Origin: an uncultured Methanocorpusculum sp.
Lineage (GTDB): Archaea; Halobacteriota; Methanomicrobia; Methanomicrobiales; Methanocorpusculaceae
Assembly (NCBI RefSeq): GCF_963667985.1
Contig: NZ_OY764081.1
Span: 558,001 to 622,000 of the forward strand
Reading direction: 5' to 3'
DNA: 64,000 nucleotides
Shown: piece after piece, positions 22,705 to 43,310 of the stretch
Layout of the letters: every line of letters starts with the position of its first letter
Position numbering within the stretch: the first letter of the stretch is position 1
Program-made: the position numbers and the translations under genes
Notes under the pieces: generated by a model
Databases searched by the model: none
Told to the model about the DNA's origin: nothing
Seen by the model: only the letters and a program-made list of their open reading frames with translations

Positions 22705-22789
22705 TTACAGCCATTTGGGCCAGAGCAGACCAAATGTGGTTACCATGCCGGCAATTTCATCACGAATACCACGATCTAGTTTGAAGAGG
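22705..22789 (-). pseudogene. 3'-end remnant of a flippase gene (duplicate of 24860-24944)
   Basis: These 85 bases match the last 85 bases of the intact flippase gene at 24860-24944 with six mismatches. They encode the same C-terminus (KLDRGIRDEIAGMVTTFG) ending at the same stop codon. Similarity stops abruptly at 22789 and at 22705. The most likely reading is an old flippase gene replaced or truncated when the present island was rearranged. Only the tail survives. Confidence 0.85.
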
Positions 22790-23435
22790 GTGAAAATATG
22801 AAGGTGGTAACTCATTTGCTTGAATCGAGATTATCACCAAAAATGATGATGGAATAAATTCATGCGATTCCACTGATGTGATAGGCAGCTGAAAGATATA
22901 AGTCTAGAAATCTCAAGTTTTAATTCACATTCTCAAGTGGTACTTACTGGCACAATTTAAAATGGAACAGAAAGATAAAGAATACTGGCCTCGAAATCAA
23001 TCACTTCATTGTCTTTTCCTTTTAGAGAGAGTATGGTTACTGAAAATCAACAGATATGATGAATGATCTTCATGATGAAGAAGAGAATCTATTATTTGAC
23101 TGGCGATAAGGAGACAATTGGAACTATTGCAATTATAGATGAAATTCACAAAAGAGAATGTAACCAATAATGTGTGATCGGGAGCTATTCCAATGAATAA
23201 AGCCATGTACAGATAGAAGTATGCCCTATCAAATATATGCTCATGAGATAGTGGAGGTAAAGGCCACGTCAAGAAAGTTTCCAATACATGAACTTGATGA
23301 TAATAAATTCGAGAGACTATCTAGTTATGGGTGAAATGGATAGAACTAATAATTAATTTTATCAATTTTTGATGATTAACTAATGATATTCCAATAGCTA
23401 TTGGATAATAATTAACAAATATATCACTTATTATA
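22790..23435 (-). other. AT-rich stretch without a recognisable gene
   Basis: About 650 bases between the flippase remnant and the SGNH gene. Only short open frames occur (for example 23006-23284 minus), none with a family signature, a good ribosome-binding site or balanced codon use. It looks like eroded coding sequence, but I cannot name the parent gene. Confidence 0.4.
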
Positions 23436-24308
23436 TTAGTATAGTTCCTGCTGTATGGGAAGATTTTCAAATATTTTTGACAAACCTGCTTTTCTAAGTT
23501 TTGGGATGGCATATTCCCAAGCTTTTTGACTTAAATGACATCCATCAGAGAGATATTCAGATTTTGTTTGATATTCTTTTGTAATTAAATCAGGAAATAT
23601 AGTTACAAAACCAATCATTTTCTCTTTGCAAACAATCTCTAATTTATTATTAAAATATTCTGTTGCCATGTTTCGCATCACTTCAGTCCCATAATATGGA
23701 TACTCTGGATTGACATTCCTAGAATCTTTTTGCGAGGAGATTGGACCCCAACACCACACATTATGCCCATCATTACGTAATATTGACATCAAACCAACAT
23801 AATTATCAACAATTTTATCAATGATAACAGAATAATCAACCCGATTAATTTCTGCTTGTTTTAACACATGTACTCTTATATCAATCTCCCCAAAAACACA
23901 AATGATATCATCATGCTTTCGAAAGTATGATTTACGAAGGATATCAATTTTTTCACGTGCTCTAATAGTTGAACCATATTTATTTAAGGAATAGGCCAAT
24001 GCCGGACCCAAATGAATTGCATCAACATTTTTATTATTATTTCTGCATTTATTGATCCCTCCCGAATATCTTGAGCCTCCCGAATATCTTGAGCCTCCCG
24101 AATATCTTGAGATAGGATACCAATTAATACCCTCATTGCCGCTAAAAAAATTTACATGAGAATCCCCTATTATTACGATAGATTTTCTTGACTTATGAGA
24201 TTCTTTTGCAACAAAATATGTAAAAATGCACATTATTTTCGCAACATACGCGAACAATTGAGATGGCAAAATAGCTTTTATTAATAATAATATTTCCATA
24301 AGCGACAT
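23436..24308 (-). CDS. SGNH/GDSL-like hydrolase in polysaccharide island
   Basis: A 290-residue protein with an N-terminal hydrophobic segment (LLLIKAILPSQLFAYVAKIM) and SGNH-type blocks: block I IIGDSHV near residue 46, a GEIDIR block near residue 140 and a C-terminal DGCHLS with the catalytic Asp/His pair. Such proteins are often sugar O-acetyl esterases or transferases. Three SRYSGG repeats (18-bp units) lie just after block I. AT-rich codon use contrasts with the housekeeping flanks, so lateral acquisition is likely. Exact substrate unknown. Confidence 0.65.
   Translation of the reverse strand: MSLMEILLLIKAILPSQLFAYVAKIMCIFTYFVAKESHKSRKSIVIIGDSHVNFFSGNEGINWYPISRYSGGSRYSGGSRYSGGINKCRNNNKNVDAIHLGPALAYSLNKYGSTIRAREKIDILRKSYFRKHDDIICVFGEIDIRVHVLKQAEINRVDYSVIIDKIVDNYVGLMSILRNDGHNVWCWGPISSQKDSRNVNPEYPYYGTEVMRNMATEYFNNKLEIVCKEKMIGFVTIFPDLITKEYQTKSEYLSDGCHLSQKAWEYAIPKLRKAGLSKIFENLPIQQELY
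24061..24111 (-). repeat. 18-bp tandem repeat inside the SGNH gene (about 2.8 units)
   Basis: The unit CCCGAATATCTTGAGCCT repeats at 24061, 24079 and (partly) 24097. On the coding strand each unit encodes six residues (SRYSGG register), so copy-number change keeps the frame. Such in-frame minisatellites can vary in length by slippage. Confidence 0.85.
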
Positions 24309-24859
24309 TTACATTAACAGATTAGGTCTCCTCCATATTATTTTTATTAATTATTCATATAAAGTATTAACATTTATAGTTAATAAAGCAAAGTGATGAT
24401 AATCATATCTATGGCTAAGCAATTATTCACATACACCGACATAAATTCATTAGTTTTTCTGACACCGATTTTTAGACTGACACTTTTTTGAAACAGAGTG
24501 TTTCAAAGGTTATTTCACACGAGTTTTAGAATATATTAGAGAAAGAGAGAGTAATAGTATTTATTCACACATGCTGCTGAATTGATATTCAGGCATTATA
24601 TTCAAGTACTAATATAAAGATGATGAAAAAACATTAAAAAATACATAAATGGCAATACCACATCATTAGGAAATATATAAACTCGTTTTTCTGCAGTGAA
24701 ATATTTGATAGTAGCATTCCCAAGAAATATGCAAATTGGTCCATGTCAATGATTTCTAACTGAGATCCAAATCAATATGCCAGAAAATGGATAAAATACT
24801 CAAAGAATTAACGCAAACATAGTTCTGCAATAATAAATAGACATAATATTTGTAACATC
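24309..24859. other. AT-rich non-coding stretch with a hairpin at 24487-24507
   Basis: About 550 bases between the SGNH gene and the flippase. I see no supported gene. It holds a near-perfect hairpin, TTTGAAACA-GAG-TGTTTCAAA, at 24487-24507; CTGACAC also occurs twice just upstream of the hairpin. No transposase or terminal repeats were recognised. Confidence 0.5.
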
Positions 24860-26332
24860 TTACAGCCATTTAGGCCAGGGAAGTCCAAATGTAGTTACCA
24901 TGCCGGCAATCTCATCACGAATACCACGATCTAGTTTGAAGAGGAGACAGACATAGATGAGGGCACCAACAACCACGGGTACAAGTGTGACCACAACGTT
25001 GTCAAGAGGGATAAATTGCATGTAAATGAAGACAAAGATAGTCATGACGATAGATGCGATTATGATATGGGTAATCGGAAGGAGTTCGACGTAGATGGCG
25101 ATATAACTTTTGAGGTAATAGGAAATGAGGATGGCATTCAATGTGTAACTTAGGAAAGTAGCAATTGTGGCACCGTTAATCCCCATAATCGGAATAAGGA
25201 TGATGTTTAAGGTGATGTTCACAATTGCAGCTGAGGCTGTTGCATAAAAAGACTGTCGAGCATGATCAGATGCAGTGAGGGTAAGACCCATGAGATAGGT
25301 AAATACTGCAACAATTTGCATAATAAGAAGGATCGAACATACAGTCGCACCCGTAGCAAAATCCGCACCGTAGAAATAATAGAGCAACCGCTCTGAGAGA
25401 AGGAGCCCCCCAAAAGCAACAGGAATTGCGAGGAGGAGTGACATCGTTATCCCACGCGCAACCACTGGGGCAATTTTATCCATCCAATTATTGGCACTCC
25501 AATAACTGATTTTAGGAGTGAGCGCTCCAACGATAGCGGCACATATCAATGTGGCTATTTGTGTGAACTGATAGGCAGTTAGGTACACGCCAACATCCCC
25601 ATTATTCATAAAATAACCAATGAAAATCGTGTCAGAATATGCAAAAACAATGGACCCGGTTCCAATTAAAAAAATCCAGAATCCATACTTAGTGAGACTA
25701 CCAATATGATGAACAGTAAACTTGGCAGGTTTGAAGGTAAAGTATTTAAGACAGAGTATGCCGAAAATAATGATGCCAACGATGAATCCCCCACACAACC
25801 CAAATACTGAAAAACCAAGAAGAACTGCAACGATCTGAACGAGAATACGGAAAAAATCACTTATGCCACTGGCAACATTATTTATTCCCACATGTCCCAA
25901 ACCACATATACCATAGGTTATGGTATGTCCAAAAAATGATGCTGCAAGTGCAGCAATAATCCAAGGAATAAGGTTGTATGACTGCAGATCAACAAATATT
26001 GGACTGAGAACTAAGAGAAGGAGGGTTGAAACAACCATGAGAATTGCCCGAAGCGTAGCATACGCTGAGAGATATTCATTCTGCTCTTTTCCCTCGGATA
26101 TCCTTTTAATCGCCGCCTGACCAAATCCCCCATCCCCAATCATATTGAATATGCCGTAATAAGCAAGGAAAAGATAGTACACCCCCATCAAATCTTTTCC
26201 GAGGAGATGGGAAAAGAGCATGGTTGATATGAATCCAAAAAAAGTTATACCTATCGTTGATATGATTGAGATGGCACTTTGGCGTTGTATTGCCGGTATA
26301 CGCATGATATTTGAGATAAAGGATATGGACAT
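24860..26332 (-). CDS. Polysaccharide/oligosaccharide flippase (Wzx-like, MOP superfamily)
   Basis: A 490-residue membrane protein with about 12-14 hydrophobic helices, an N-terminal SIISTIGITFFGFISTMLFS segment typical of O-antigen flippases, and a C-terminal polysaccharide-synthesis domain. It would move lipid-linked sugar units across the membrane for S-layer glycosylation or capsule. Its last 85 bases are duplicated as a remnant at 22705-22789. It is divergent from rfbF, with a perfect palindrome between them. Confidence 0.88.
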   Translation of the reverse strand: MSISFISNIMRIPAIQRQSAISIISTIGITFFGFISTMLFSHLLGKDLMGVYYLFLAYYGIFNMIGDGGFGQAAIKRISEGKEQNEYLSAYATLRAILMVVSTLLLLVLSPIFVDLQSYNLIPWIIAALAASFFGHTITYGICGLGHVGINNVASGISDFFRILVQIVAVLLGFSVFGLCGGFIVGIIIFGILCLKYFTFKPAKFTVHHIGSLTKYGFWIFLIGTGSIVFAYSDTIFIGYFMNNGDVGVYLTAYQFTQIATLICAAIVGALTPKISYWSANNWMDKIAPVVARGITMSLLLAIPVAFGGLLLSERLLYYFYGADFATGATVCSILLIMQIVAVFTYLMGLTLTASDHARQSFYATASAAIVNITLNIILIPIMGINGATIATFLSYTLNAILISYYLKSYIAIYVELLPITHIIIASIVMTIFVFIYMQFIPLDNVVVTLVPVVVGALIYVCLLFKLDRGIRDEIAGMVTTFGLPWPKWL

Positions 26333-26509: not shown

Positions 26510-27289
26510 ATGAAAGTTCTTATACTCGCGGGTGGTATGGGCACGCGCCTTGCGGAAGAAACCAGCGTTATCCCCAAACCGATGGTTGAGATTGGTGGTC
26601 ATCCAATCCTCTGGCACATCATGAAAATATATTCTCAATATGGATACAATGACTTCATCATTCTCTTAGGTTACAAAGGCTATATCATCAAAGAGTATTT
26701 TGCAAACTACTTCCTTCACAGAAGTGACGTCACCTTTGATCTTGAAAAAAACCAGATGATTATCCACGAACAGCACTGTGAACCTTGGAAGGTTACACTC
26801 ATAGACACCGGTTTAAACACCATGACTGGAGGACGTGTTCTTCGTGCACGAAAGTATGTTGGTAATGAACCATTCATGCTGACTTATGGTGATGGTGTCT
26901 CTGATATTAACATAAATGAACTTGTTGCATTCCACAGAAAACATTGCCGCCTCGCAACCATGACATCTGTTCAACCAGAAGGTAAATTTGGTGCTCTTAT
27001 ATGCAACGATAATGGTGAAATAATATCATTTACAGAAAAACCAAAAGGTGATGGAGGTTGGATCAATGCCAGCTTCTTTGTCCTTCAACCAGAAGTTTTT
27101 GACTATATAAAAGAGGGAGATGCTACGATCTTTGAGCGAGCACCGCTGGAAAATCTTGCTAAAGAGGGGGAACTCTACACCTATACGTATGAAGGTTTCT
27201 GGAAATGTATGGACACATTGCGTGATAAGTATATTTTACAGGAGATGTGGGATAAGGGAAACGCGGCCTGGAACTGTTGGACAGAATGA
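26510..27289 (+). CDS. rfbF: Glucose-1-phosphate cytidylyltransferase
   Basis: Makes CDP-glucose from CTP and glucose-1-phosphate. The nucleotidyltransferase signature LILAGGMGTRLAEET opens the protein, with PKPMVEIGG and the metal-binding YGDGVSDININ near residue 129. Length 259 is normal for RfbF. Its TGA overlaps the start of rfbG (ATGA at 27286-27289), so the two are coupled. The rfbF-rfbG-rfbC order indicates synthesis of a CDP-6-deoxyhexose for cell-surface glycan. Confidence 0.94.
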   Translation: MKVLILAGGMGTRLAEETSVIPKPMVEIGGHPILWHIMKIYSQYGYNDFIILLGYKGYIIKEYFANYFLHRSDVTFDLEKNQMIIHEQHCEPWKVTLIDTGLNTMTGGRVLRARKYVGNEPFMLTYGDGVSDININELVAFHRKHCRLATMTSVQPEGKFGALICNDNGEIISFTEKPKGDGGWINASFFVLQPEVFDYIKEGDATIFERAPLENLAKEGELYTYTYEGFWKCMDTLRDKYILQEMWDKGNAAWNCWTE

Positions 27290-28371
27290 TTTTTGGCATA
27301 TATAACGGAAAAACGGTCCTCGTCACCGGCCACACAGGATTCAAAGGTTCTTGGCTTTGTCTCTGGCTTGCAGAACTGGGCGCAGACGTCCACGGCTTCT
27401 CCCTACCACCAAACACCGAACCAAACCACTACACCGCAGCACGCATCTCCAAATTGCTGAAATCGGAAAAATTAGGTGACATAAAAGATCAAAGCACGCT
27501 AACGAAGTACGTCCAGAGTGTTCAACCTGACTGCATATTCCATCTGGCAGCCCAGCCTCTCGTAAGAAAATCATATGCCGAACCCGTAGAGACCTTCGAC
27601 ACAAACGTTATGGGAAGCATCTATCTGATGGAGGCGGTGAGAAATCTGGGTAAACCATGTTCAGTTGTGATGATCACGAGCGATAAATGCTATGAAAACG
27701 TCGGCAAAGCAGAGGGCTATGTTGAGAATGACCCGATGGGGGGTCATGATCCCTACAGCGCAAGTAAAGGCTGCGCTGAACTCGCCATCACGTCATACCG
27801 TCGCTCTTTTTTCCCACCTGAAGATATCGCAAATCATGGAGTACTGCTTGCATCAGTTCGTGCGGGAAACGTTGTTGGAGGTGGAGACTGGGCAGAGGAC
27901 AGAATCATTCCAGACGCCATGCGTGCTGTTACCTCGGGAAAATCTCTGGAGATCAGAAGTCCAAACGCTGTTCGTCCCTGGTAGCACGTGCTGGAGCCGC
28001 TCTCGGGCTATTTGCTCCTTGCAATAAAGATGATGGAAACGAATGCATCGGTTTATGCTGACGGTTGGAACTTTGGCCCAAAAGAGAACAGCCCCGCGGT
28101 CACGGTCGCTGAGATCATCGACGCTTTCTATAATGTATGGGGAAAAGGAAAAGCAGAATATGATACAAATACAAAGCATCTGCATGAAGCTACGTTCCTG
28201 ACGCTCTCCTCAAAGAAAGCAGAGAGTGTTCTTTGCTGGAAACAGCAGTGGGATGTCACTGAGACGATGCAGAAAACTGCCGAATGGTATAAGAATTATT
28301 ATGCTGGAGCAGATGCACGAGAACTAAGTCAGGCTGATATTGCTGCTTATACCAAACACCTGGAGTATTGA
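27286..28371 (+). pseudogene. rfbG: CDP-glucose 4,6-dehydratase interrupted by an in-frame TAG
   Basis: Extended SDR enzyme: VTGHTGFKGSWL NAD motif near residue 12, catalytic YSASK near residue 156. The frame is stopped by TAG at 27982-27984 (codon 233) in the segment NAVRPW-stop-HVLEPLSGYL. Family members have Gln at this place, so one CAG to TAG change explains it. The same frame continues without further damage to 28371, for 361 codons in all. Unless the TAG is read through, the product loses its C-terminal substrate-binding third. Confidence 0.85.
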
Positions 28372-28372
28372 G

Positions 28373-28942
28373 ATGGGAAAATTAACGATTATCGAGACAC
28401 CGCTGAAAGGTTTATACATCGTAGAAACGAATGCATTCGTCGATCACCGGGGAGCATTTGCCCGCTGGTTCTGTGAAGAAGAACTGGCTACAACCCTTGG
28501 GAAACGTCACATAAAAAACGTGAACTTTTCAATAACGGTGACGACCGGTTCCATCAGAGGGATGCATTTCCAGAAGCCGCCTCATGCAGAGATGAAACTT
28601 GTGCGGTGTATCAGAGGAAGGATTCTGGATGTGGTCGTGGATATCCGGGCGGGATCTCCAACATTTTTAGAGCATTATGCAATTGAGCTCTCAGCAGAGA
28701 ATATGAAGATGTTTGCGATTCCGGAAGGATTTGCCCATGGATTTCAGTCTCTTGAAGATGATTCGGAGATCATGTATCTCGTAACGGAGTTCTATTCTCC
28801 GGAGAGTGAAGCAGGTCTTCGGTTTAACGATCCGGCTCTGAAGATAGAATGGCCGCTTCCGGTGACGGATATCTCGACAAAGGATGTAGAACATCCACTG
28901 ATATATGATGATTTTACAGGGTTAGATGTGTCGATGTATTAA
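28373..28942 (+). CDS. rfbC: dTDP-4-dehydrorhamnose 3,5-epimerase-like protein
   Basis: Cupin-fold sugar-nucleotide epimerase. FVDHRGAFARWF near residue 24, the catalytic His in GSIRGMHFQKPP near residue 60 and the paired GFAHGFQSL near residue 115 are all present. 189 residues from the ATG at 28373; the frame extension to 28340 lies inside rfbG. Because it follows rfbF-rfbG, its substrate is probably the CDP-linked 4-keto-6-deoxy sugar rather than the dTDP form; that is inference. Confidence 0.88.
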   Translation: MGKLTIIETPLKGLYIVETNAFVDHRGAFARWFCEEELATTLGKRHIKNVNFSITVTTGSIRGMHFQKPPHAEMKLVRCIRGRILDVVVDIRAGSPTFLEHYAIELSAENMKMFAIPEGFAHGFQSLEDDSEIMYLVTEFYSPESEAGLRFNDPALKIEWPLPVTDISTKDVEHPLIYDDFTGLDVSMY

Positions 28943-29000
28943 TAATAATATCAGACAAATACAAAAATGATTTTTGAAGTCAAGGATGTTGATTAAAATG

Positions 29001-30099
29001 ATGAGGATTCCGGTAAATAAGCCATCGATAACTGAACTTGAAATTGCATACGTAACTGATGCAATAAAGAATGGGTGGGGCGATCATTGTTACGACTATA
29101 TCAACAGATTCACAGAAATACTTAAATCAACATTTGGAACTAAATATGCATGGCCAACGTCGAGTTGTCATGGGGCTTTGCATACAGTTTTAATGGCAGT
29201 TGGTCTCGGTCCCGGGGATGAAGTCATCGTTCCTGATATTACGTGGATTGGAAGTTTATCTCCTGTTGTCTGGCTTGGAGCAAAACCAGTATTTGTTGAT
29301 GTGCTCAGAGACACGTGGTGTATTGATCCAGTATCTGTTGAGAAAAAAAATTACTGATAAAACAAAAGCAATCATTGTAGTTCATCTCTATGGTTGTGTA
29401 TGCGATATGGATGCGATTATGCGGATTGCTAAAAAGCATGATCTTATAGTTATTGAAGATGTTGCTGAAGCTGTAGGTTCCGAGTATCATGGAAAGAAAG
29501 TTGGTAGTGTGGGTGATTTTGGTGTATTCTCGTTCCATGGTACAAAAACATTCACCACAGGTGAGGGGGGAGCAATCATCTCTAATCGTGACGATTTATC
29601 GGAAAAAATCACTACAATTTCAAATCAAGGGAGAAGGCCAGAACAACATATAATGTTCTGGGTTGATGAACTTGGATTAAAATATAAAATGTCAAATCTC
29701 GATGCAGCATTGGGTGTGGCGCAGTTTGAAAGATTCGATGAGTTAGTGGATAAGAAACGTGAGATCTTTAGCTGGTATAAGGAAGAATTGGCTGATGTTC
29801 CTGATATTGCGATGAATGTTGAACAAGATGGAACAAAGAATCTCTACTGGATGCTATCGATAATTTTTGGTGATTCATATAATTTTGATCGTGACAATCT
29901 AATCAAAGATATGAACGCTGATGGGATTGGACTTCGTCCATTTTTCTATCCGGTCAGTATATTTCCAATGTTTAAACCAGCTACAGATAATGTTGTAAGT
30001 TATTCATTATACAAATATGGAATTAATCTGCCAAGCTATAATGACATGACTCGAGATGACGTTTCTATCGTTGTTCGTGAACTTCTCAGTAAACTTTGA
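29001..30099 (+). pseudogene. DegT/DnrJ/EryC1 sugar aminotransferase with a +1 frameshift in A8
   Basis: PLP aminotransferase of the perosamine-synthase type: NKPSI start, SSCHGALH, IEDVAEAVGSEYHG and the PLP lysine in SFHGTKTFTTGEGG. The frame breaks at an A8 run (29343-29350): as written it runs to a TGA at 29355-29357, but removing one A gives VEKKITDKTKAIIVVHLYG and a full 365-residue enzyme. With gmd and the NeuD-like gene next door, a GDP-perosamine pathway is plausible. Confidence 0.85.
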
Positions 30100-30104
30100 A
30101 AGCA

Positions 30105-30836
30105 ATGTCTGCATGTTTGCTCTATCAAAATGATATGAAACAGGCCCCAATTGATTATATTATGTGGGGTGCCAAGGGTCATGGCATTGTCATACGTGAC
30201 GTACTTGATACATATGGATGCATGTTGAAAGCAGTTTTTGATAATAATATGTCTCTTAAATCCCCATATGATGATATCCCCTTATTTTATGCGAAGGAGG
30301 GATTTGAGAATTGGCTTAATGAACAAAATCCCCACACAAAAATAGGATATGTTGTTGCAATTGGGGGAGCCTATGGTAAAGACAGAGTAGATCTTTCTGC
30401 ATATCTTTCTTCCTATGGTCTTCACACAATCTCATTTATTCATCCATGGACATCTGTAGCTCCTGATTTTGTCATAGAAGAGGGAGTGCAAATTATGGCA
30501 GGGTCATGCATTAGTGTCCGTGTTCGAATTGGCAAACAAACAATTGTAAATCATATGGCAAACGTAGATCATGATTGTTCATTGGGTAAGGGGGTTCATG
30601 TGGCGCCGGGTGCAACTCTTGCTGGATGTGTTGAGGTACAAGATTATGCGATGATAGGAGCTGGTGCAACAATTCTGCCAAATATAACTATTGGGGAGGG
30701 AGCCATTGTTGGTGCGGGAGCAGTTGTAACTAAAGATGTAGCTAGCGGAGATATAGTTGTGGGAATTCCAGCTTGCAGAAGGTATTTATGGATTTTGTTG
30801 ATGAATTTTACGCTGACAAAGACTTGTCATTATTGA
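30105..30836 (+). CDS. NeuD-like sugar O/N-acyltransferase (hexapeptide repeats)
   Basis: An N-terminal PglD/NeuD Rossmann-like domain (MWGAKGHGIVIRDVLD) binds the sugar nucleotide. Left-handed beta-helix repeats follow, with the catalytic His in NVDHDCSLG and a typical end GIPA near residue 222. The last ~20 residues after GIPA do not resemble the family and are read through the start of the next gene in another frame; a lost stop codon is possible. The start at 30105 is preferred over TTG 30096. Likely acetylates an amino sugar made by the aminotransferase. Confidence 0.78.
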   Translation: MSACLLYQNDMKQAPIDYIMWGAKGHGIVIRDVLDTYGCMLKAVFDNNMSLKSPYDDIPLFYAKEGFENWLNEQNPHTKIGYVVAIGGAYGKDRVDLSAYLSSYGLHTISFIHPWTSVAPDFVIEEGVQIMAGSCISVRVRIGKQTIVNHMANVDHDCSLGKGVHVAPGATLAGCVEVQDYAMIGAGATILPNITIGEGAIVGAGAVVTKDVASGDIVVGIPACRRYLWILLMNFTLTKTCHY

Positions 30837-31489
30837 AAAAACTGACGTTAGTTATTCCAACGTATAATCGGAATTATTATTTAAGTCGGTGTTTGTGGTA
30901 TCACGCACATTTTCCATTTGGGGAAATAATTGTTGCGGATTCCTCACCGGAAGAGAAAAAAATAGTGAACCGCGATACTGTAACTAAAGTGCGAGAGATG
31001 TTTGGAGCTAACATTCGTTATCTGGAGTATGAACCGGAAACTGAAAAATACGGAGGAGATATTGTACGAAAATGGGGAGATGCTGTGCAGCATGTGGAGA
31101 CAGAATATTCACAGATTTGCACTGATAAGGAGTTTTTGATTCCAACATCTTTGAGTAAATGTATTGTCTTTCTTGAAAATAATTACGATTATGTCTCATC
31201 AGGTGGGAGAGAATATCAATTAAAAACAACAAAGGACGATATCCGTGAAAAATCAGGCTATTATTTAAAGATGGGAGATTCAGAGAGAACATCAGAAAAA
31301 AACCACGATGGGTTAATGCGCTTCACACACTCCATAATTAAAGTAGCACCAATGCACAATAGTATGCTGTTACAAATGATGAGATCCAATAATCTGAAAT
31401 ATCAATATGATCTAGTTAAAAAATATAATATTATAGATATAAAATATAGTGAGATTATCTCAAATCATGCGCTAATGACCTTCCAATAG
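30788..31489 (+). CDS. Family 2-type glycosyltransferase, probably C-terminally truncated
   Basis: Starts with the GT-A motif LTLVIPTYNRNYYL and has EIIVADSS and a CTDKEFLIPTSLSKC segment in place of the usual DDD region, as in the TIGR00180-like group. It ends at 233 residues, shorter than I expect, right before a convergent gene, so the 3' end may be lost. The start is unclear: ATG 30788 overlaps the NeuD-like gene by 49 bases; TTG 30773 is an alternative. Confidence 0.6.
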   Translation: MDFVDEFYADKDLSLLKKLTLVIPTYNRNYYLSRCLWYHAHFPFGEIIVADSSPEEKKIVNRDTVTKVREMFGANIRYLEYEPETEKYGGDIVRKWGDAVQHVETEYSQICTDKEFLIPTSLSKCIVFLENNYDYVSSGGREYQLKTTKDDIREKSGYYLKMGDSERTSEKNHDGLMRFTHSIIKVAPMHNSMLLQMMRSNNLKYQYDLVKKYNIIDIKYSEIISNHALMTFQ

Positions 31490-31553: not shown

Positions 31554-32486
<933 letters not shown>

Positions 32487-32490
<4 letters not shown>

Positions 32491-33581
32491 AGATACGACC
32501 TTATATGCTCTATACATGCTTGTGTCCCATCATTAATGAAGATGTCGCTGCATGTTTGATAGTTTTCTTTCATTGATAACAATTCGTCGATGTGGCTAAT
32601 CCAGTTTCCGTATTCAACAGCCTCCCATGACATCTGTTTGCCGATACCCGTGGTTTCCAGAGGTTGAAGGATATATGGATCCTCAGCAAATCCCTCCCTA
32701 GTGAATATCAGAAGAGGTATTCTTGCCCGAATGGACTCTGAAACAGTACTGTATCCGGGTTTGGTTACTACGAGATCACACGCACCAATATAATTCTGGG
32801 TTTCGGTTTCTAAACCTGGGATCCTGATAATGTTTGGATGATGGAATGGCTGATTTTCTGATACCAATATTCTTATATCTGAATCGATCAGTTTATGGAT
32901 ACAGGCAGGAACAGAATTGAACGAAAGACCTGATCCCACATGAACCAAAATTTCATTGCCGGAAATGCCTAAACGTTTTCGCATTACTTCGCGTGAGAGA
33001 GTCGATTGTCTCGAAACCAGCGGTACAAAAAAACGCTCTTTGAAAACATCCAGTGATTCATTCAACGGGAGGACCAAACCAAGATCTGCAGAAGCATAGG
33101 CATCATGGATCATCTGTACTTCAGGAGAATTCCCATATAACTGTCTGAATATCAGATCCCATGTAAAGTTTGAAACACCTATTCCCGGAATACCAAGAGT
33201 TTTTGAAACAACAAATGCCTGAGGTGTAATGTCGGAAAGGATCAAATCCACCGTATGTTCTTTACAGAAGACCGTTTCTTCCGTTATCCATGTTCCCCAG
33301 GATGAGATCCAATGACGCAGTGATCTTTCAGTATCTTCTCTATTGACGCGGGAGGTTGAGTCATACATCACTGTTCCAATATCATTTCGCTTCTTTTCAA
33401 CAGAAACAAATAGACAGGAGTCGCGGATAAAATCAGCAGATGTATTGGTTCTGACTGAGATAGTACAGTTCATCGAAGCATGCAAAGCACACATCAAAGC
33501 AATACTTCGGGAGGCATGACCGAAGCCGTAATCACTGATGTAAAAACGAATGTGGGGGCCGGTCAGTCTGCTCCCCACCAT
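32487..33581 (-). CDS. MurG-like (GT28-type) glycosyltransferase
   Basis: A 364-residue GT-B protein. [14 protein letters not shown] near residue 13 matches the glycine-rich acceptor loop of MurG/UGT-like enzymes, and [11 protein letters not shown] near residue 275 is the donor-nucleotide motif. The start overlaps the end of gmd by 19 bases and the stop overlaps the expected fcl start, so gmd, this gene and fcl form one translationally coupled set. It likely transfers a GDP-derived deoxysugar; donor inferred from neighbours. Confidence 0.8.
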
Positions 33582-34616
33582 TTATCTGGATACAGCTTTC
33601 CAAGTGCTGCATCTCCTTCGCCGATTGACTCAAGCCCTGCTGCACGGAAATCAGCATCGACCATGATCCTTGTAAGATCACCAAAGGTTACTTTTGGTCT
33701 CCAACCAAGAATCTTCTTCGCCTTTGAAGCATCACCGATAAGATTTTCCACTTCGGTCGGACGGAAATACTTGGGATCAATCCTAACGTGATCTTCCCAG
33801 TTCAAGCCTGCATAACTGAATGCCTCTTCAAGGAACTCTTTTACCGAATTGGTCTGTCCGGTGCTTACGACATAATCATCCGGCTTGTCTTGCTGAAGCA
33901 TCATCCACATCGCTTCGACGTACTCTGGCGAGAAGCCCCAGTCACGGCGTGCATCAAGATTGCCCATATAGAGATATTTTTGTTTTGCCTGCAACGATAT
34001 TGGCAAGACCACGGGTTATTTTTCTTGTCACAAACGTTTCACCGCGACGGGGAGATTCATGATTGAAAAGAATACCATTACAAACAAACATATTATACCC
34101 GTCACGATAGTTTCTGGACATATAATAAGCATAAACCTTTGCACATGCATACGGACTGCGTGGCCAGAACTTAGTGTCCTCATTCTGCGGCGGTGGTGTC
34201 GCACCAAACATCTCCGAACTGGATGCCTGATAGAATCTAATGTTTTGCCCGCTTTTTCGGATGGTTTCTAATAAACGGGTTGTTCCAAGCCCTGTGACAT
34301 TCCCGGTGTATTCAGGCGTGTCAAAGCTTACTCTCACGTGGCTCTGAGCGCCTAGATGATAAACTTCCGAAGGTTTGATATTGTAAATTATATTGGAAAT
34401 CTGTTCCGTATCTGATAAATCTCCATAATGAAGAATCAACTTAGGTTCATCATGGGGATCTTGATATATGTGATCAAGACGGGATGTATTGAAAGTAGAT
34501 GCACGGCGAATAAGGCCATGGACGGTATATCCTTTATTTAGGAGAAGCTCTGCCAGATAGGACCCGTCCTGACCTGTAATGCCGGTTATGAGAGCGGTTT
34601 TTGTAATGTGAATCAC
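33563..34616 (-). pseudogene. gmd: GDP-mannose 4,6-dehydratase with a +1 frameshift in A5
   Basis: Makes GDP-4-keto-6-deoxymannose, precursor of GDP-fucose, -rhamnose and -perosamine. [18 protein letters not shown] motif, SSSEMFG, and [11 protein letters not shown] (Tyr/Lys) are intact in the first part; [18 protein letters not shown] follows in a second frame. The frames join if one A is removed from the A5 run (33977-33981), giving [19 protein letters not shown] and a normal 350-residue enzyme. As written the product stops shortly after the A-run, losing the C-terminal substrate domain. Confidence 0.87.
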
Positions 34617-34735
34617 CTTGATATTTATTATATGTGTGAGGAAGCTATTTACACGTTATTCTCCATAATAGATGGTTTAGAAAACACAATCCTTTTGATG
34701 AACATAAATCATATTATACAAGCAGGAAACACTTT

Positions 34736-36094
34736 ATGTACACAATAATTCTTGCTGGTGGTTTTGGTACTAGACTATTCCCGTTGAGCAGGAGTAACTA
34801 TCCCAAGCAGTTTATCCCGCTTTTTGGTGACAAATCACTATTTCAAAAAGCCGTTTTGCGTGCATTGCTGTTTTCAAAACCGGATGAAATATTTGTTGTA
34901 ACAAATGACACCCATAAATTCCTTGTAAATGATCAACTACGTCAGATTGCTGTCTCCTGCAATGTTCTTGAAGAACCTTGCGGAAAAAATACCCTTCCGG
35001 CTATTACCTACGCATCTTTGAAAATATATGAAAAGAAAAAAGAAGCTGTGATCCTCGTCCTATCATCGGATCAACTTCTTGAGGAGGGAGAAGTATACAC
35101 TTCAGCGGTAAGAGCGGCCGAAAAATTAACCAGAGAATATATTGTAACATTTGGCGTAGTGCCAAAAACGCCCCACACAGGATACGGATATATTCGTCCT
35201 GGCGATAAAATTGGTGATGGATACAAGGTGGCTGCATTTGTGGAGAAGCCAGACATCCGTACTGCAGAGAAATATATGAAAGAGGGATATCTCTGGAATG
35301 CAGGTATATTTTGTTTTTCTGCCGACTTATTTCTCAAAGAGTGTAGGAGATATGCTCCAGATGTATTTGATGCCTTCAAAAACGATGTCTTGGAAGCATA
35401 TAAACGGACTCCAAAGATTTCTATTGATTATGGTCTGTTGGAAAAATCATCCAAGGTTGCAGTTGTACCCTTTTCAATAGCATGGAACGATCTCGGAAGT
35501 TTCGAAGCACTGTATTCAGTCAGTGAAAAAAATGAAGAGGGAAATGCAGTTAACTTTGAATATGTTACCCCTGATGGAAAAAATAATCTCATAATATCGG
35601 AGAGACTTGTTTCAACCATTGGAATATCTGATACAGCGATCATCGATACAACAGACGTTCTCGTGATATGCCCAACTAATCAAACCCAGAAGATCGGAAC
35701 TATTTCCGAGTTGCTTCGACAGAAAAATGATGAGAGAGTCGACACTCACACAACCGTCCAACGACCATGGGGATGTTATACAACGCTCCTGAAAAGTGAA
35801 ACTTACCTTGATAAAAGGTTAATCCTAAATCCCCATAACCGTATTTCTCTTCAATATCATAATCACCGAAGCGAACATTGGGTGGTGGTCAGCGGGATTG
35901 CTGAAGTTACAAATGGCGATAAACTGCTCACTGTTAAAGCAGGGGAAAGTACCTTTGTTCTGGCAGGAACTTTGCACCATCTCGCAAATCCTGGAAATGA
36001 TGCACTTGAAGTAATAGAAGTTCAGAATGGACATCCGCTTTCAGAAGATGATATATTCAGGTGCGAGGATGATTTTCACCGAGAGACAAAATGA
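34736..36094 (+). CDS. manC: Mannose-1-phosphate guanylyltransferase / mannose-6-phosphate isomerase
   Basis: Bifunctional type II PMI-GMP that supplies GDP-mannose. Pyrophosphorylase signature GGFGTRLFPLSRSNYPKQF at the start, FVEKP near residue 163, and a C-terminal cupin with the isomerase RPWGCY and SLQYHNHRSEHW. Length 452 is normal and A-runs inside it are in frame. Divergent from gmd, its user; its TGA overlaps the ATG of the next glycosyltransferase. Confidence 0.93.
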   Translation: MYTIILAGGFGTRLFPLSRSNYPKQFIPLFGDKSLFQKAVLRALLFSKPDEIFVVTNDTHKFLVNDQLRQIAVSCNVLEEPCGKNTLPAITYASLKIYEKKKEAVILVLSSDQLLEEGEVYTSAVRAAEKLTREYIVTFGVVPKTPHTGYGYIRPGDKIGDGYKVAAFVEKPDIRTAEKYMKEGYLWNAGIFCFSADLFLKECRRYAPDVFDAFKNDVLEAYKRTPKISIDYGLLEKSSKVAVVPFSIAWNDLGSFEALYSVSEKNEEGNAVNFEYVTPDGKNNLIISERLVSTIGISDTAIIDTTDVLVICPTNQTQKIGTISELLRQKNDERVDTHTTVQRPWGCYTTLLKSETYLDKRLILNPHNRISLQYHNHRSEHWVVVSGIAEVTNGDKLLTVKAGESTFVLAGTLHHLANPGNDALEVIEVQNGHPLSEDDIFRCEDDFHRETK

Positions 36095-37050
36095 TGTTTC
36101 CACGGATTTCAATAATAGTACCTCTCTACAACAAGGTTAACGAGGTCCAGAGGGCTATCGATTCGATTTTCGCTCAGACAATACAGGATTTTGAACTTAT
36201 AATAGTTGACGGAGGTTCAACCGACGGCAGTCTGGATGCGATAAAAAAATACGAGCTTGATCCACGCTATCGTCTAATTCATCAGATTTCAAAAGGTTTG
36301 CCGGTAGGAAGAAATGACGGGATTGTAGCTGCCAGCACAGACATCATTGCCTTTCTGGATGCAGACGATGAATGGTGCCCCACGTTTTTAGAGAAAATAT
36401 TTCATCTACGCCAGATGTATCCATATGCAGGCTTATATGCAACGGCCTATGCTACGCGTTATGAAGATTCTTTTCGTGAGCCACGTCTGAGCGAAATTCC
36501 TTCTGCACCTTGGGAAGGGCTGCTGAAATCCTATTTTCGAAGTTCAGCACTTGCATTTATCTATCCTTTTGCACCCTGCTACGTTGCAATTCCAAGATTT
36601 ACCTTTACTACAGTTGGCCTCTTTAATCCCAATCTTCGAACTGGGGAGGACGCGGAGATGTGGGGGAGAATTGCCCTCAATCTTCCTATAGCATTCACAT
36701 CATCAATTGGGGCAATATATTCAGCTGTAGCCAGTAATAAAATGACAGATAATCCAACTGTTTTAATTCAACATCCCTTTGTAGAGTATCTTGCAGCATA
36801 CCCGGAAAATGAATTGAATAAGCATCCAGACATAGAAAACATTCGATTATACATACAAAAAGAGGAGTTAGCAATAGCCCTTAACAACCTATATGCACAT
36901 GATTCGAGACAGGCATGAATCAACTTAAAACGGGTAACATACAAAGAATTCAGAAAGCAGAAGATCGGATTAACACTACTTTCCTTTCTCCCAAAAAAGC
37001 TACTGACTCGCGTCCTTCCATTCGCAACGAAATGTGGAGTAAGAGTATAA
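36091..37050 (+). pseudogene. Family 2 glycosyltransferase shortened by an in-frame TGA
   Basis: GT-A enzyme: ISIIVPLYNKVNEVQRAIDS start, DGGSTDGS near residue 47 and metal-binding DADDEW near residue 91. TGA at 36916-36918 (codon 276) ends the frame, but the same frame stays open for 43 more codons to TAA at 37048-37050 and encodes a plausible glycosyltransferase tail (INLKRVTYKEFRKQ, then LPKKLLTRVLPF). A CGA to TGA change would explain it. The short form keeps the catalytic domain and might still work, so pseudogene status is uncertain. Confidence 0.6.
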
Positions 37051-37063
37051 ACTGATGACTAAT

Positions 37064-37807
37064 TCAGATAATCCCCCACTCCACCCTCATCCTTCTCACT
37101 CCCCCCACATCCACCTCAGCCGTGCACCCTCCTTCAAACACCCCTCCATCACAAATAACCCGCCCCTCATAATCACACACCAGACTTCGCCCGCAGTAAT
37201 CAGTGCCCGAAACTGGATCATATCCCATACACGCAGTCCCGAAAACAAACCCTCTGTTCTCCAATGCCCGGGCCCGAAGTAAAAGCTCCCAGTCTGCTAC
37301 CCGGGAAGCAGGCCAGGCTGCCTGAACCAAAACACACTCGCACCCCATCTTTAGGTACTCGCGGAATAACTCGGGAAAGCGCAGATCAAAACAAATCGCA
37401 CACCCAAACTTCACACCACCGTACGCAAAGGTCACCGGCGCATGACCCGGAGAAAAACATCGGTCCTCCTTTCCCGGCACAAACAAAAACATCTTGGAAT
37501 ACTCGGCAATCACCTCGCCTGCCGGGCCGCACACGAGCATTGTGTTCTGCGGCAGTCCGCCAGCTTCCACTTTCTGATAGGACCCGACAACACAGACATT
37601 ATGCTTCGCCGCAAGAGCAAGCCACCGTCGTTTCACATCCTCACCCGAGATCTGCGAAGGAGAGGGACGCCACCCGGTTGCAAACTGCTCGGAAAACATC
37701 ACCATATCTGCAGTCCCAGAATATTCATTAAGAAAAGAATCTGCTTTCGCAAAAGCAGCATCAACATCATCCCACACCTGAATCAGCTGGGCACAACAGA
37801 CTCGCAT
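37064..37807 (-). CDS. Carbon-nitrogen hydrolase (nitrilase/omega-amidase type)
   Basis: A 247-residue nitrilase-superfamily amidase. The Glu-Lys-Cys triad is visible: FSEQFATG (Glu near residue 40), YSKMFLFVPGKED (Lys near 105) and CAICFDLRFPE (Cys near 138). Such enzymes deaminate 2-oxoglutaramate-like amides; the substrate here is not determined. It is the first intact gene right of the polysaccharide island and is convergent with its last gene. Confidence 0.88.
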   Translation of the reverse strand: MRVCCAQLIQVWDDVDAAFAKADSFLNEYSGTADMVMFSEQFATGWRPSPSQISGEDVKRRWLALAAKHNVCVVGSYQKVEAGGLPQNTMLVCGPAGEVIAEYSKMFLFVPGKEDRCFSPGHAPVTFAYGGVKFGCAICFDLRFPELFREYLKMGCECVLVQAAWPASRVADWELLLRARALENRGFVFGTACMGYDPVSGTDYCGRSLVCDYEGRVICDGGVFEGGCTAEVDVGGVRRMRVEWGII

Positions 37808-37847: not shown

Positions 37848-38220
37848 AATCACTCCGGGGTATTTTGTATTGAATCGTTCAATCCCATGATCGCTCACTG
37901 GTTCAGGATCAACCGACCAAAGTACCTGCGTGGCTTTTTAAGCACGGATTATCGAAAGGAACTGGCATCACTCGCATGCTGTGAACCGCCGAAACTGACA
38001 TTCCTGGAGAAATTCATCCTAACGAATTGTTTAATGAATTTTTTTATCAGACCGGATTTTATTGCCTACAATATTTCTTACAGAAATCAACTGTCCTATC
38101 GGATATGCACTAAATTATTCGGCATTGTCAAAGTCGGGTGGACGATCCGCAGTAAAAAAAGAATTGGATACGGCAGGTTCATCGTTCGATGTGATTATTT
38201 TCGACTCGTTTCTGCCCTAA
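37848..38220 (+). pseudogene. Glycerophosphodiester phosphodiesterase, 3' remnant with a +1 frameshift
   Basis: Encodes only the C-terminal half of a GDPD barrel: CIESFNPMIAHWFRINRPK, YLRGFLS, RPDFIAYNI, then VGWTIRSKK. At the A7 run (38154-38160) the frame is lost; removing one A continues SKKELDTAGSSFDVIIFDSF to a TAA at 38218-38220, matching the usual family end. The catalytic N-terminal half is absent, so it is dead regardless of the frameshift. Family call rests on these motifs. Confidence 0.7.
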
Positions 38221-38881: not shown

Positions 38882-39044
38882 GATGCACGAAAGCTGATTT
38901 AGATTGGGTGGTCTGGTATTTATGCGGGACGGGATGATCGGTGTTTCCCGTGCCGGCAGAGGAACAGATATTATCCGTCAGGGAGCTATGTAACCATATG
39001 GAAAGTATTACTGCAGATGAGTTAGGGGAGCATTTCGCCCAATC

Positions 39045-39815
39045 GTGTTTCTTCGGACGGATATCTATCCTTCGAACGCGATTTCACCGAAGGAGGGAGC
39101 ACGAAGAGGTTGTGTGATGGGATTCATCTCGCATGTTATCCGGGATCGGAAAACTGCAGTTTTCACGAAAGAAACATGTCTTTGCGCCGGGGCAGTGGCA
39201 GGTCTCTGTTTTGGGAACGGTTACGTGGCGGCACCCGGAGGCGTTGATACGTTCGTGGCGTTTTTCTCGTACGGTCTTGAGTTGGCGAAGGATCCGGAAA
39301 CGTATCAGAAATTTTGTGATCGGATGCCGGAAAAATCCCGGAGAAAGTTTTTGGAGGGGGAACGGATGCATGTGGACGCCGAAACGGCGAAAAAGTTCAT
39401 CGATGATGAAATCACGGCGATTCCGGCAATCTCCGGAAAATATGCGGTGTTCAAACCGATTGAGGATCTTGTTGAGGGAGAAGTTCCAGTGTCGGTAATT
39501 TTTACGGTGAATCCGGTCGAACTTGCGGCATTGATGCATCTTGCGGGGTCTCTTTCCGGCGGGAACGGTCTGACTGCATCTTCACGGATATCTGCATGTC
39601 AGGCACTTGGAAGCAAAGTTCTGCAGGAGTCAAAAAAGGAGGTTCCAAACGCCGTTCTTGGTATGACGGATCTTGCGGGCCGCGGGCACTGTCGAAACGT
39701 TATCCCGAATGAGTATCTGACGTACAGTGTTCCCTGGAACATGTTTCTTGCAATGGAAGAGGCAGCGCCGAAGAGTTTTTTCCAGACGATGACCTGGGAG
39801 AAGTTTAAGGAATAA
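39045..39815 (+). CDS. DUF169-like protein, N-terminus possibly frameshifted
   Basis: A roughly 256-residue soluble protein with Cys motifs (KETCLCAGAVAGLCFG) and a C-terminal VPWNMFLAMEE helix as in DUF169 proteins, which have no settled role. The frame opens at GTG 39045 without a ribosome-binding site. A better-looking N-terminus (ATG 38998 after AGGGAG; MESITADELGEHFAQSCFF) lies in another frame and would join at about 39050 if one base were added. Alternatively translation starts at ATG 39117. Confidence 0.6.
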   Translation: MFLRTDIYPSNAISPKEGARRGCVMGFISHVIRDRKTAVFTKETCLCAGAVAGLCFGNGYVAAPGGVDTFVAFFSYGLELAKDPETYQKFCDRMPEKSRRKFLEGERMHVDAETAKKFIDDEITAIPAISGKYAVFKPIEDLVEGEVPVSVIFTVNPVELAALMHLAGSLSGGNGLTASSRISACQALGSKVLQESKKEVPNAVLGMTDLAGRGHCRNVIPNEYLTYSVPWNMFLAMEEAAPKSFFQTMTWEKFKE

Positions 39816-39961: not shown

Positions 39962-41383
39962 ATGGCAACAAAACCTTCGGTAAGCTATAAGTTATCATTA
40001 ACTGCGTTTATCCTGATTACGTTCGCGGCCATTATGAGCATGCGTACCTTCCCATCGCAAAGTGTGGTGGGCTGGCAGTCAATCTTTTTCTGCCTCCTTG
40101 CATTTATCGTATACCTGATCCCTGCATCCCTGGTTTCGGCTGAACTTGCCACCGGATGGCCGCAGGAAGGTGGTGTCTATGTATGGGTAAAAGAGGCATT
40201 TGGAGAAAAATGGGGTTTTACCGCCATTTGGCTGCAGTGGTTCCAGATGACGATCGGATTTATCAGTGTTCTGACCTTCATCGCGGCAACATTCTCTTAC
40301 ATCATTGACCCGGAGCTTGCAAACAACAAGATATATCTGTTCATTTTCATTGTTATTATCTGGTGGGGTCTGACCTTCCTGAACCTCAGGGGTCTCAAAG
40401 CTTACACCAGAATCAGTTCGATTTCTGTCGTCATTGGAACATTCATTCCGGCGGCAATTCTTCTCATCGGCGGAGCATGGTACATCTTTTCCGGAAACCC
40501 CGTCCAGTTAACCCTCCAGCCGACGGTATCGGATCTCATACCCAACTTTTCATCAGTTTCCAATCTGGTGATGCTGGTAACCTTCGTTTTCCTGTTCATC
40601 GGTATAGAGATGACCGCAAGTCATGCACAGGATATCAGCAATGTCAAGAAGAATTATCCTCTCGGCATATTTGTCGTCGGATTAGTCATCACGGCAATAA
40701 GCATTGTCGGGGCTATGATCGTAGCCTTACTCGTGCCGGCAGACAACATCAACCTTCTTGCAGGCATCATGCAGACCTTTGAAGTAATATTTGCGGGTCC
40801 GTTCTCATGGGTGGTACTGATCATCGCTCTCCTTATTGCAATCGGAGCGATCGGTCAGGTGTCGACCTGGATCTTAGGGCCGGTCAGAGGTCTTTTCGCG
40901 ACAGCAAAAGAAGGCACTCTGCCTCCTGTTCTTCAGAAGACAAACAAAAACGATATCCCGGTAAACATGCTTATCCTCCAGGGAATTCTCATCACGTTCT
41001 GGGGAGCGGTTTACGCTCTTGCTCCAGGAGGAGTTAACAGTTCGTTCTGGATGCTCTTTGCTTTGACGACCACCGTATACATCGTCATGTATTTCCTGAT
41101 GTATGCGGCTGCAATCAGACTCAGATACACGCGTCCGGATGTTCCACGGGCGTTTAAGATCCCGGGCGGGAAGGCCGGCATGTGGTTAGTTGGAGGATTT
41201 GGATTTGTGATGATGGCAATTCTTTTCGTTGTTGCAATGCTGCCGCCAACCCAGATTTCGGAAGGAGGCGGCTTTGTGGCATTCATGATTATTGGAACGG
41301 TCGTCGTCGCAGCCATACCTTTAATCATTTATGCATTCAAAAAGCCGGAATGGAAAATAACTCAGCCGGAGACCAAAGAGTAA
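39962..41383 (+). CDS. APC-family amino-acid permease/antiporter
   Basis: A 473-residue 12-helix transporter close to the glutamate:GABA and tyrosine:tyramine antiporter group: ELATGWPQEGGVYVWVKEAFG in helix 2-3, WLQWFQMTIGF, and a charged tail. It lies 16 bases upstream of a PLP amino-acid decarboxylase; such pairs exchange substrate amino acid for its amine and generate proton-motive force or acid tolerance. Unusual for a methanogen and probably acquired. Substrate inferred from the neighbour. Confidence 0.85.
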   Translation: MATKPSVSYKLSLTAFILITFAAIMSMRTFPSQSVVGWQSIFFCLLAFIVYLIPASLVSAELATGWPQEGGVYVWVKEAFGEKWGFTAIWLQWFQMTIGFISVLTFIAATFSYIIDPELANNKIYLFIFIVIIWWGLTFLNLRGLKAYTRISSISVVIGTFIPAAILLIGGAWYIFSGNPVQLTLQPTVSDLIPNFSSVSNLVMLVTFVFLFIGIEMTASHAQDISNVKKNYPLGIFVVGLVITAISIVGAMIVALLVPADNINLLAGIMQTFEVIFAGPFSWVVLIIALLIAIGAIGQVSTWILGPVRGLFATAKEGTLPPVLQKTNKNDIPVNMLILQGILITFWGAVYALAPGGVNSSFWMLFALTTTVYIVMYFLMYAAAIRLRYTRPDVPRAFKIPGGKAGMWLVGGFGFVMMAILFVVAMLPPTQISEGGGFVAFMIIGTVVVAAIPLIIYAFKKPEWKITQPETKE

Positions 41384-41399
41384 GTACGGAGAACTTAGT

Positions 41400-43310
41400 A
41401 TGACAAACACGGAAAAAACCAACACATCCCCATGCACGCCAGAAGATGCTCTCAAAGTGAAGGCGCTCTTCCTCGGCCCCAAATCTGAGAACCGCGAGTA
41501 TTTCAAGAACATGCTCAACTTCCTGATGGATGAGCACATGCACTGGAGAAGCGATTTCCACCCGGAAGACAGGATGGTCTCGTCGGCAAAAGAGATGCGA
41601 AGCGAGGAATATCTGACGACGCTCGACCGTACCTCCGATGTTCTGATGCAGCTGTCGAACAAACTCAAAGAAACCTCGATGCCCTGGTTTTAATCCAGAT
41701 ATCTCGGTCACATGAATTCCGACACGCTGATGGTGGCTAACCTCGCGTACATGGCGACGATTCTCTACAACCCAAACAACGTAGCCTACGAAGCATCAAC
41801 CGCGACGACCCCGATGGAAATCGAAGCCGGCAAAGACATGGCAACAATGCTTGGGTTCGACCCCGAACAGTCATGGGGTCATATCACCACCGACGGCACG
41901 ATTGCAAATTACGAAGGTCTGTGGATGGCACGCAATCTCAAATCGTTCCCGCCTGCGGTCAAAAAGATACGGCCCGACTTTGTTCCCGGGCTTGACGACT
42001 GGCAGATCATGAACATGAGCACCACCCAGGTGCTTGACCTTATCGGGAAAGTGAAGGAAGCCGGCTGTTTCGATGAGGTAAGAAACGAAAGTGCCAGAGG
42101 TGTCGGGGCAGGCGACGGCTGTCTTGGTGTTGTCCTGGTCCCGCAGTCCAAACATTATTCATGGGTGAAGGCCGCCGATGTTCTCGGGATCGGAAACAAG
42201 AATCTGATCCAGGTGCAGGTAAATGACCACTACCACATGGATATCGACACGCTGAAAAGCATCATCGACGATCACATCGCACGAAAGATCCCGATTATGG
42301 CAGTCATGGCCGTTGTTGGAACGACTGAAGAAGGAGCTATTGATGAGGTCGACAGGATCGCAGAATTACGGGCCGAGTATGAAAAACAGGGTATCAACTT
42401 CTACTTCCATATCGACGCGGCCTACGGCGGCTATTCACGTGCTCTTTTCCTTGACGAACAGAATCGCTTCATGGAGTACGGTGAAGTGAAAGAACGTCTC
42501 AGCGCCGACGGGATATTCATACATGAAACCGAATACCCGCAGAGAGAAATCTATGAAGCATACAAGGCAATTCCGGCTGCGGACTCGATCACCATTGATC
42601 CGCATAAGATGGGCTATATTCCCTATTCAGCCGGAGGAATTACCATAAAGGACAGGCGTATTCTTGATCTGATCTCGTACTTTGCCGCCTATGTCTTTGA
42701 ATCGGGCGAGGATTCACCAACTCTGCTTGGCAGTTATATCATGGAAGGATCAAAGGCCGGCGCCACGGCCGCCGCCGTCTGGGCGACGCACAGACTGATC
42801 CCGCTGAACGTAACCGGTTACGGAAGAATCATCGGCCGGAGTATTGAGGGAGCACAGATGTTGTCCAATGCTCTGACAACGACGAAGTACATTACGGTCA
42901 ACGACCGGAAATTCCAGGTTGAAACTCTTGCAGGAAAGCCTGACTTCAATATTGTGTGCATGGCGTTTAATGAGGTGGGAAATACCGATCTGGATTCCAT
43001 GAATGCTCTGAACGAAAAAATCTATAACGAATCCTCCTATGTCAGCGGGCCGGTGTATAAAAACGACTGGATCACCTCAAAAACTGCCCTCGCACGGGAA
43101 GACTACGGCGACGCTCCAAGAAACTTCGTGAAACGCCTCGGGGTCCCAACGGCAGAGTGGGATCGTGTCGGCTCGGTGTATGTGCTTAGAGTCTGCCTGC
43201 TCAATCCGTTCGTTTCCCACAATGTGCACTTTGACGTCCTGTGGGACCAGTTACTTGCAATCCTCAAGGAAAAGCTTGCTGCGGCAATTGCCGGCGATGG
43301 AAAGTGCTGA
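41400..43310 (+). pseudogene. PLP amino-acid (tyrosine-type) decarboxylase interrupted by in-frame TAA
   Basis: Long group II decarboxylase resembling bacterial tyrosine decarboxylase: ENREYFKNMLNFLMDEHMHWR near residue 30, RYLGHMNSDTLMVANLAYMAT, the cofactor stacking region WGHITTDGTIANYEGLW, and the PLP lysine in TIDPHKMGYIPY. TAA at 41691-41693 (codon 98) splits PWF-stop-SRYLGHM, but the same frame runs 636 codons in total. The downstream part starts with an ATG at 41712 lacking an obvious ribosome site. GGAGAA precedes the first ATG. A dimer-forming N-terminal segment would be lost without readthrough or re-initiation. Confidence 0.8.

Follow-up and report, generated by a model that had tools for sequence, protein, structure and literature searches.

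What does it mean when neighbouring genes of one archaeal locus are each broken by a single small lesion? The question is raised by a 64,000-nt stretch from an uncultured Methanocorpusculum (bases 558001-622000 of the contig, hereafter the window), in which the segment 22705-43310 carries genes for CDP- and GDP-sugar synthesis and glycosyl transfer, several of them disabled. An earlier note, made from the letters of the window, had counted four +1 A slips and three in-frame stops in this segment and had offered on/off switching or polymerase slippage at the A-runs of surface-glycan genes, recent decay, or assembly error as explanations. Recent decay fits best of these, and the probable explanation is a recent, ongoing decay of a variable surface-polysaccharide island together with some other accessory genes.

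Coordinates refer to the window unless prefixed G000, which denotes the source genome, a single contig of 1,760,986 bases. The window belongs to Methanocorpusculum. Its closest relative for the decarboxylase, rfbG and glycerophosphodiesterase (GDPD) genes is M. labreanum (G005), and the manC-like guanylyltransferase has its highest identity to M. petauri (G008) among the 17 loci matched. Other relatives are given by label (G001, G006, G010, G011, G021), and searches of the genus covered 25 genomes.

Lesions of the polysaccharide locus

In G005, G006, G010, G011 and G021, threonine synthase, a DUF457-like gene and the presumed flippase lie on one side of the locus and the presumed nitrilase gene on the other, and the sugar genes between these boundaries differ among the five genomes. 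The GC content of the locus is 36-46% in 2-kb steps, compared with mostly 48-52% in the surroundings. By its predicted gene content the locus is an island for surface polysaccharides, variable in its genes and fixed in its chromosomal position. The region has 19 genes, including one open reading frame (ORF, 23436-24308) that was left out of the assessment as no relative matched it, and nine are broken: seven by one small lesion, one by a split and one by shortening (Table 1). The disabling lesions are absent from the orthologues in relatives. Two pairs of genes acting in the same pathway are broken in both members, namely gmd with fcl and rfbG with the aminotransferase.

The three in-frame stops listed in the earlier note all hold. 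The TAG in rfbG stands where all four aligned relatives have CAG, the TAA of the decarboxylase corresponds to TCA in both aligned relatives, and in the glycosyltransferase starting at 36091 homology continues in the same frame beyond the TGA in three alignments, among them the alignment with a gene of G006 (58% over 308 residues). A reassignment of stop codons was considered and set aside, since the stops are of three kinds and the codons that they replace also differ (CAG, TCA, GGA and TGG).

The four homopolymer runs are likewise present where the earlier note had placed them, two of 8, one of 7 and one of 5 (T5 on the forward strand, 33977-33981), although its claim that each of the four genes has exactly one A too many stands only in part. 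The aminotransferase has one base more than both relatives aligned, which read AAAGAGAA and GAAAAAGA at the run. In fcl the run is T8 on the forward strand and A8 on the gene strand, and no such run is found in any of three relatives; the extra base is seen against M. petauri, which alone among the three gives an alignment over the tract. In the other two the N-terminus differs, and the reading frame from ATG leads to the shared motif; all three are open from ATG through this motif. The insertion in gmd is real against all three relatives aligned, but its position has to be moved: the relatives read A3-C-AGAAG or similar where the window reads A4-C-AAAAA, and the insertion would be placed more parsimoniously in the A3 to A4 run at 33983-33986 than in the A5 run, because the A5 is then explained by two silent changes.

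The fourth gene, GDPD, had been described as a remnant with a single slip and is not a one-lesion gene. The M. labreanum protein is whole (282 aa, Pfam GDPD); its residues 161-265 match 37851-38165 of the window and its residues 19-165 match G000 735614-736054, which places the two pieces 140 kb apart, the second within a block whose orientation is opposite to that in M. labreanum. Gene order compared with M. labreanum breaks inside GDPD at G000 595856 (window 37856) and differs further to the right. By these alignments GDPD is a gene split by rearrangement, and its A7 run, which is A6 in M. labreanum and interrupted in three other relatives, is an additional lesion in an already split gene.

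Three lesions had been overlooked: the -1 G in the DUF169-like gene, the shortened glycosyltransferase at 30773 and a membrane protein at 20123-20716. The shortened glycosyltransferase probably lacks its final 115-190 residues or so, as judged from the length of its relatives, and aligning its 3′ end at the DNA level gave no clear homology. The "four +1 A slips" were picked out of a set of lesions of mixed kinds.

Table 1. Genes of the region in window coordinates, followed by the clear lesions found elsewhere in the source genome. Functions outside Pfam and NCBIfam hits are predictions; names marked "presumed" are our assumption.
Feature	Coordinates	Strand	State	Comparison or basis
Presumed polysaccharide flippase, left member of locus	24860..26332	-	intact	76-80% identity over 490 aa, 4 relatives
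Presumed rfbF-like glucose-1-phosphate cytidylyltransferase	26510..27289	+	intact	259/259 aa in 4 relatives
rfbG-like CDP-glucose 4,6-dehydratase	27277..28371	+	in-frame TAG 27982-27984	Pfam epimerase/dehydratase
Presumed rfbC-like epimerase	28373..28942	+	intact	66-89% identity, 4 relatives
DegT/DnrJ/EryC1/StrS aminotransferase	28989..30098	+	+1 A at A8 29343-29350	Pfam, alignment with relatives
Presumed acetyltransferase-like gene	30117..30836	+	essentially intact, last residues differ	61-66% identity to 226-230 aa relatives
Glycosyltransferase	30773..31489	+	probably shortened, TAG 31487-31489	238 aa vs 375-406 aa in relatives 47-63% identical
fcl-like GDP-4-keto-6-deoxymannose epimerase/reductase	31554..32490	-	+1 A at A8 32465-32472	Pfam Epimerase
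Presumed glycosyltransferase	32487..33581	-	intact	364/364 aa in M. petauri, 53% identity
gmd-like GDP-mannose 4,6-dehydratase	33563..34625	-	+1 A	Pfam GDP_Man_Dehyd; 3 relatives
Presumed manC-like mannose-1-phosphate guanylyltransferase	34736..36094	+	intact	66-78% identity, 3 relatives
Family-2-like glycosyltransferase	36091..37053	+	in-frame TGA 36916-36918	homology beyond stop
Presumed nitrilase-family gene, conserved right boundary	37064..37807	-	intact	80-89% identity, 5 relatives
3′ piece of glycerophosphodiesterase (from residue ~161 of 282)	37848..38206	+	frameshift at A7 38154-38160	alignment
Presumed DUF169-like gene	38998..39815	+	-1 G at 39025-39028	G005 and G021 one base more there
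Presumed amino-acid permease/antiporter	39962..41383	+	intact	93-98% identity, 473 aa, 2 relatives
Pyridoxal-phosphate (PLP) decarboxylase	41400..43310	+	in-frame TAA 41691-41693	Pfam
ArsR-type regulator	outside region		TGA	
Nnr, NAD(P)H-hydrate repair enzyme	G000 509495-509503		+1 in 8-base C/G run	
trpE	outside region		+1	
ABC ATPase	outside region		-1	
Formate channel	outside region		TGA	
Glutaredoxin/thioredoxin reductase	outside region		TAG	
C11 peptidase	outside region		TGA	

At the left margin, about 2 kb (22705-24860) are extra relative to M. labreanum between the DUF457-like gene and the flippase. Part of the flippase end is repeated at its left side (22705-22789), and the stretch includes the unmatched ORF 23436-24308, which looks SGNH hydrolase-like by eye and has a short tandem repeat near 24060-24110. 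In a fifth relative, G006, the flippase matches a longer ORF at 74%, and the upstream part of that ORF meets two stops. No plasmid match to 26510-34700 was found at megablast level.

Lesions elsewhere and their distribution

The earlier note had found the housekeeping genes on either side unaffected. Inside the window this is borne out, as no flanking housekeeping gene is clearly broken, but trpE is frameshifted only 720 bases to the left of it. An event was seen in 6 of the 32 flanking ORFs compared. The membrane protein at 20123-20716 has a C-terminal frameshift (197 aa against 214 aa in all five relatives), and ORF 17165-17737 was flagged and fails the coding filter described below. The remaining events lie within the first 20 codons (ORFs 47154 and 54405), upstream of the Pfam domain of mcrB (60564) and at the last codons of ORF 62084.

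M. labreanum served as a control for local synteny up to about 27 kb, beyond which gene order differs, and a larger sample of it was then used. Its ORFs were compared with a 464-kb sample of G000, in which 239 genes were assessed and 227 were retained as coding-like by their third-position excess. Of these, 24 were flagged, and sorting by eye kept nine as clear single interior lesions, two in the region (rfbG and the decarboxylase) and seven elsewhere (Table 1). The 15 genes dropped comprise eight with paired or scattered indels in mostly divergent alignments (G000 428277, 525165, 672752, 674221, 688965, 716584, 800467 and 816419), a short ORF (468198), one with several N-terminal changes (470091), one with a change near the C-terminus (549883) and one unclear case (736233). 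The others are an RNase P subunit with a lesion at the end of the domain (506011), mcrB with a lesion upstream of the Pfam domain and probably before the true start (618564), and a gene with two lesions, perhaps an older pseudogene (718984).

The genus searches bear out the lesions in three of the seven genes outside the region. trpE is broken into two parts in G000, and the three other genomes having it keep it whole. Nnr, found in 23 of 25 genomes, is split in G000 and gives a partial match with one TGA in G001. For the formate channel, a stop occurs in 2 of 29 matches from 24 genomes, the G000 gene and a neighbouring M. labreanum paralogue. The two paralogues lie side by side in each genome (G000 675671-677880 and G005 1536420-1538726), and the stop is in the opposite copy in each.

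Compared like for like, clear lesions affect 2 of 9 genes in the region and 7 of 218 elsewhere (p=0.04), or 3 of 9 with the DUF169-like gene included (p=0.005). Counting also genes without an M. labreanum orthologue, 7 of 19 region genes are affected (p about 1e-5); here the denominators are approximate, accessory genes are set against a mainly core set, and the region was picked once its lesions were known. The locus is enriched in lesions, on few genes. At the same time, the lesions are neither surface-specific nor poly-A-specific, because similar ones are present in trpE, the formate channel, thioredoxin reductase and Nnr. The full set from the region and elsewhere consists of seven nonsense mutations and eight frameshifts (n=15); it excludes the shortened glycosyltransferase gene (30773) and the membrane protein frameshifted near its C-terminus (20123-20716).

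Probable gene decay and its alternatives

Under the decay explanation, genes of the island and some accessory genes would have been inactivated in the G000 strain by independent ordinary mutations. Replication slippage may have produced some of the lesions, at the two A8 runs and some shorter runs; single-base nonsense substitutions, the -1 G and a rearrangement breakpoint would account for others. With one enzyme of a sugar pathway lost, the following step would no longer be needed, as may have happened in gmd with fcl and in rfbG with the aminotransferase. The lesions are present in the assembly both in and outside the region, the relatives are intact and GDPD is split; decay would further imply that the cell truly carries the lesions, that they are fixed and that selection on the locus is relaxed. 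For M. labreanum Z, the genome report gives 26 pseudogenes, or 1.4% (PMC3035222).

Several observations weigh against this explanation. First, eroded codons elsewhere in the genes, which the earlier note had named as a mark of simple decay, did not appear: relaxed constraint on the G000 branch was found in none of 12 three-genome tests of five genes at p<0.05, the lowest value being 0.067 for rfbG, with a measure (excess of first- and second-position changes) of little power. The loss must therefore be a recent one, unless some of the lesions do not exist in the cell or have not become fixed. By these tests the lesions look very recent, yet so many of them without a measurable excess of amino-acid changes are harder to reconcile with slow neutral decay than with a very recent or selected loss, with reversible lesions or with base errors. 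Next, the break in the widespread Nnr gene falls in an 8-base C/G run, and a frameshift at such a place raises a suspicion of assembly error. Finally, the excess of G000 over M. labreanum is modest. In the latter 16 of 226 genes were flagged and 1-3 were clear by eye, among them the formate-channel paralogue confirmed by the genus search, and 9/227 against 1-3/226 gives only p=0.02-0.14.

The alternative that survives best, though still an unlikely one, is that bases were miscalled in the homopolymers, so that the indels there would be errors of a single-contig assembly whose sequencing technology is not given. The Nnr frameshift and the codon patterns without significant relaxation would both fit such errors. 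However, 7 of the 15 lesions are substitutions to stops, which make up 4.2% of random substitutions; if indels were as common as substitutions, this would have a probability of 8e-7, and it would become likely only with about 10-20 substitution errors for every indel. In the compared genes, none of the 58 A/T runs of exactly 7 has a frame change beside it, the lesions of gmd and the DUF169-like gene lie outside long runs, and the split of GDPD is not a matter of base calling. Runs of 8 are frameshifted in 2 of 2 cases in the locus, and runs of at least 8 in 1 of 9 in other genes (3 of 11 with two doubtful ones), a difference that is not clearly significant (p=0.05-0.13). Wholesale assembly error is unlikely because 7 of the 15 lesions are nonsense, while single homopolymer calls may be wrong.

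It is highly doubtful that the two A8 runs, in the aminotransferase and in fcl, arose recently as sites of reversible slippage or that slippage of RNA polymerase rescues them; either would yield a population with mixed surface glycans. As established slipped-strand phase variation, in which the two runs toggle surface sugars, the idea is very improbable. Both runs do lie in surface-sugar genes, both are one step out of frame, and neither gene shows signs of erosion elsewhere. Yet in the comparison with sister genomes, which the earlier note had suggested, the relatives are intact and none of those aligned has the A-runs at full, unbroken length, and A/T runs of at least 8 are no more frequent in ORFs of G000 (0.35 per 10 kb, 464-kb sample) than in the M. 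labreanum sample (0.39). The switch proposed for surface genes also finds no support in the lesions themselves: they are a mixture of insertions, a deletion, nonsense mutations and a gene split, slippage could not undo other lesions in the pathways concerned, the consecutive steps gmd and fcl are both broken with the gmd insertion outside a slippery run, and genes unrelated to the surface are broken elsewhere in G000. A literature search, at the level of search results, returned no relevant archaeal case of homopolymer phase variation.

Transcriptional slippage or recoding that partly restores the product at the A8 runs, as reported for insect endosymbionts, is less probable still. A poly-A frameshift in an otherwise intact gene, as described in PMC3017870, would fit the aminotransferase and fcl; the Blochmannia tracts given there, however, are 9 or more, and the nonsense, gmd, DUF169 and split-gene lesions are left unexplained. 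For RNA polymerase slippage, too, the literature search found no relevant archaeal case at search-result level.

Early decay of a host-restricted or endosymbiotic lineage like Methanocorpusculum sp. MCE is scarcely credible, for although lesions spread across transport, redox and amino-acid genes, and MCE is described as pseudogene-rich in PMC12662959, the G000 genome is close in size to that of M. labreanum, and cbiC, one gene only, is open in G000, whereas MCE has no functional cobalamin pathway according to PMC11287868. Identity of the source organism with MCE is, on the same single gene, not supported.

Relation to known systems

The probable decay of the island would make the biology of the locus ordinary. 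It suggests an archaeal surface-polysaccharide island that is losing several sugar-nucleotide steps at once, very recently. The result is of use for the annotation of G000 and as a caution against taking every A-run frameshift for a switch; should reads reveal mixed run lengths, the locus would instead represent an archaeal contingency locus.

Bacterial loci of the capsule and O-antigen type carry recent pseudogenes. The island resembles them in being a variable glycan locus at a fixed site, with single lesions and co-loss within a pathway, whereas it belongs to a methanogenic archaeon and no measured phenotype is tied to it. Mononucleotide contingency loci likewise have a run of identical bases in a surface-glycan gene that is one out of frame, but here the run is not kept in relatives and most lesions of the region are not reversible by slippage. 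With the poly-A frameshifts of Buchnera and Blochmannia that may be rescued by transcriptional slippage (PMC3017870), the locus shares an A-run frameshift in an otherwise intact gene; the runs here, however, are of 8 and not of 9 or more, and the genome has about 50% GC. Finally, the source genome and Methanocorpusculum sp. MCE, as cited in PMC12662959 and PMC11287868, have the genus and scattered pseudogenes in common, and differ in that cbiC is open here.

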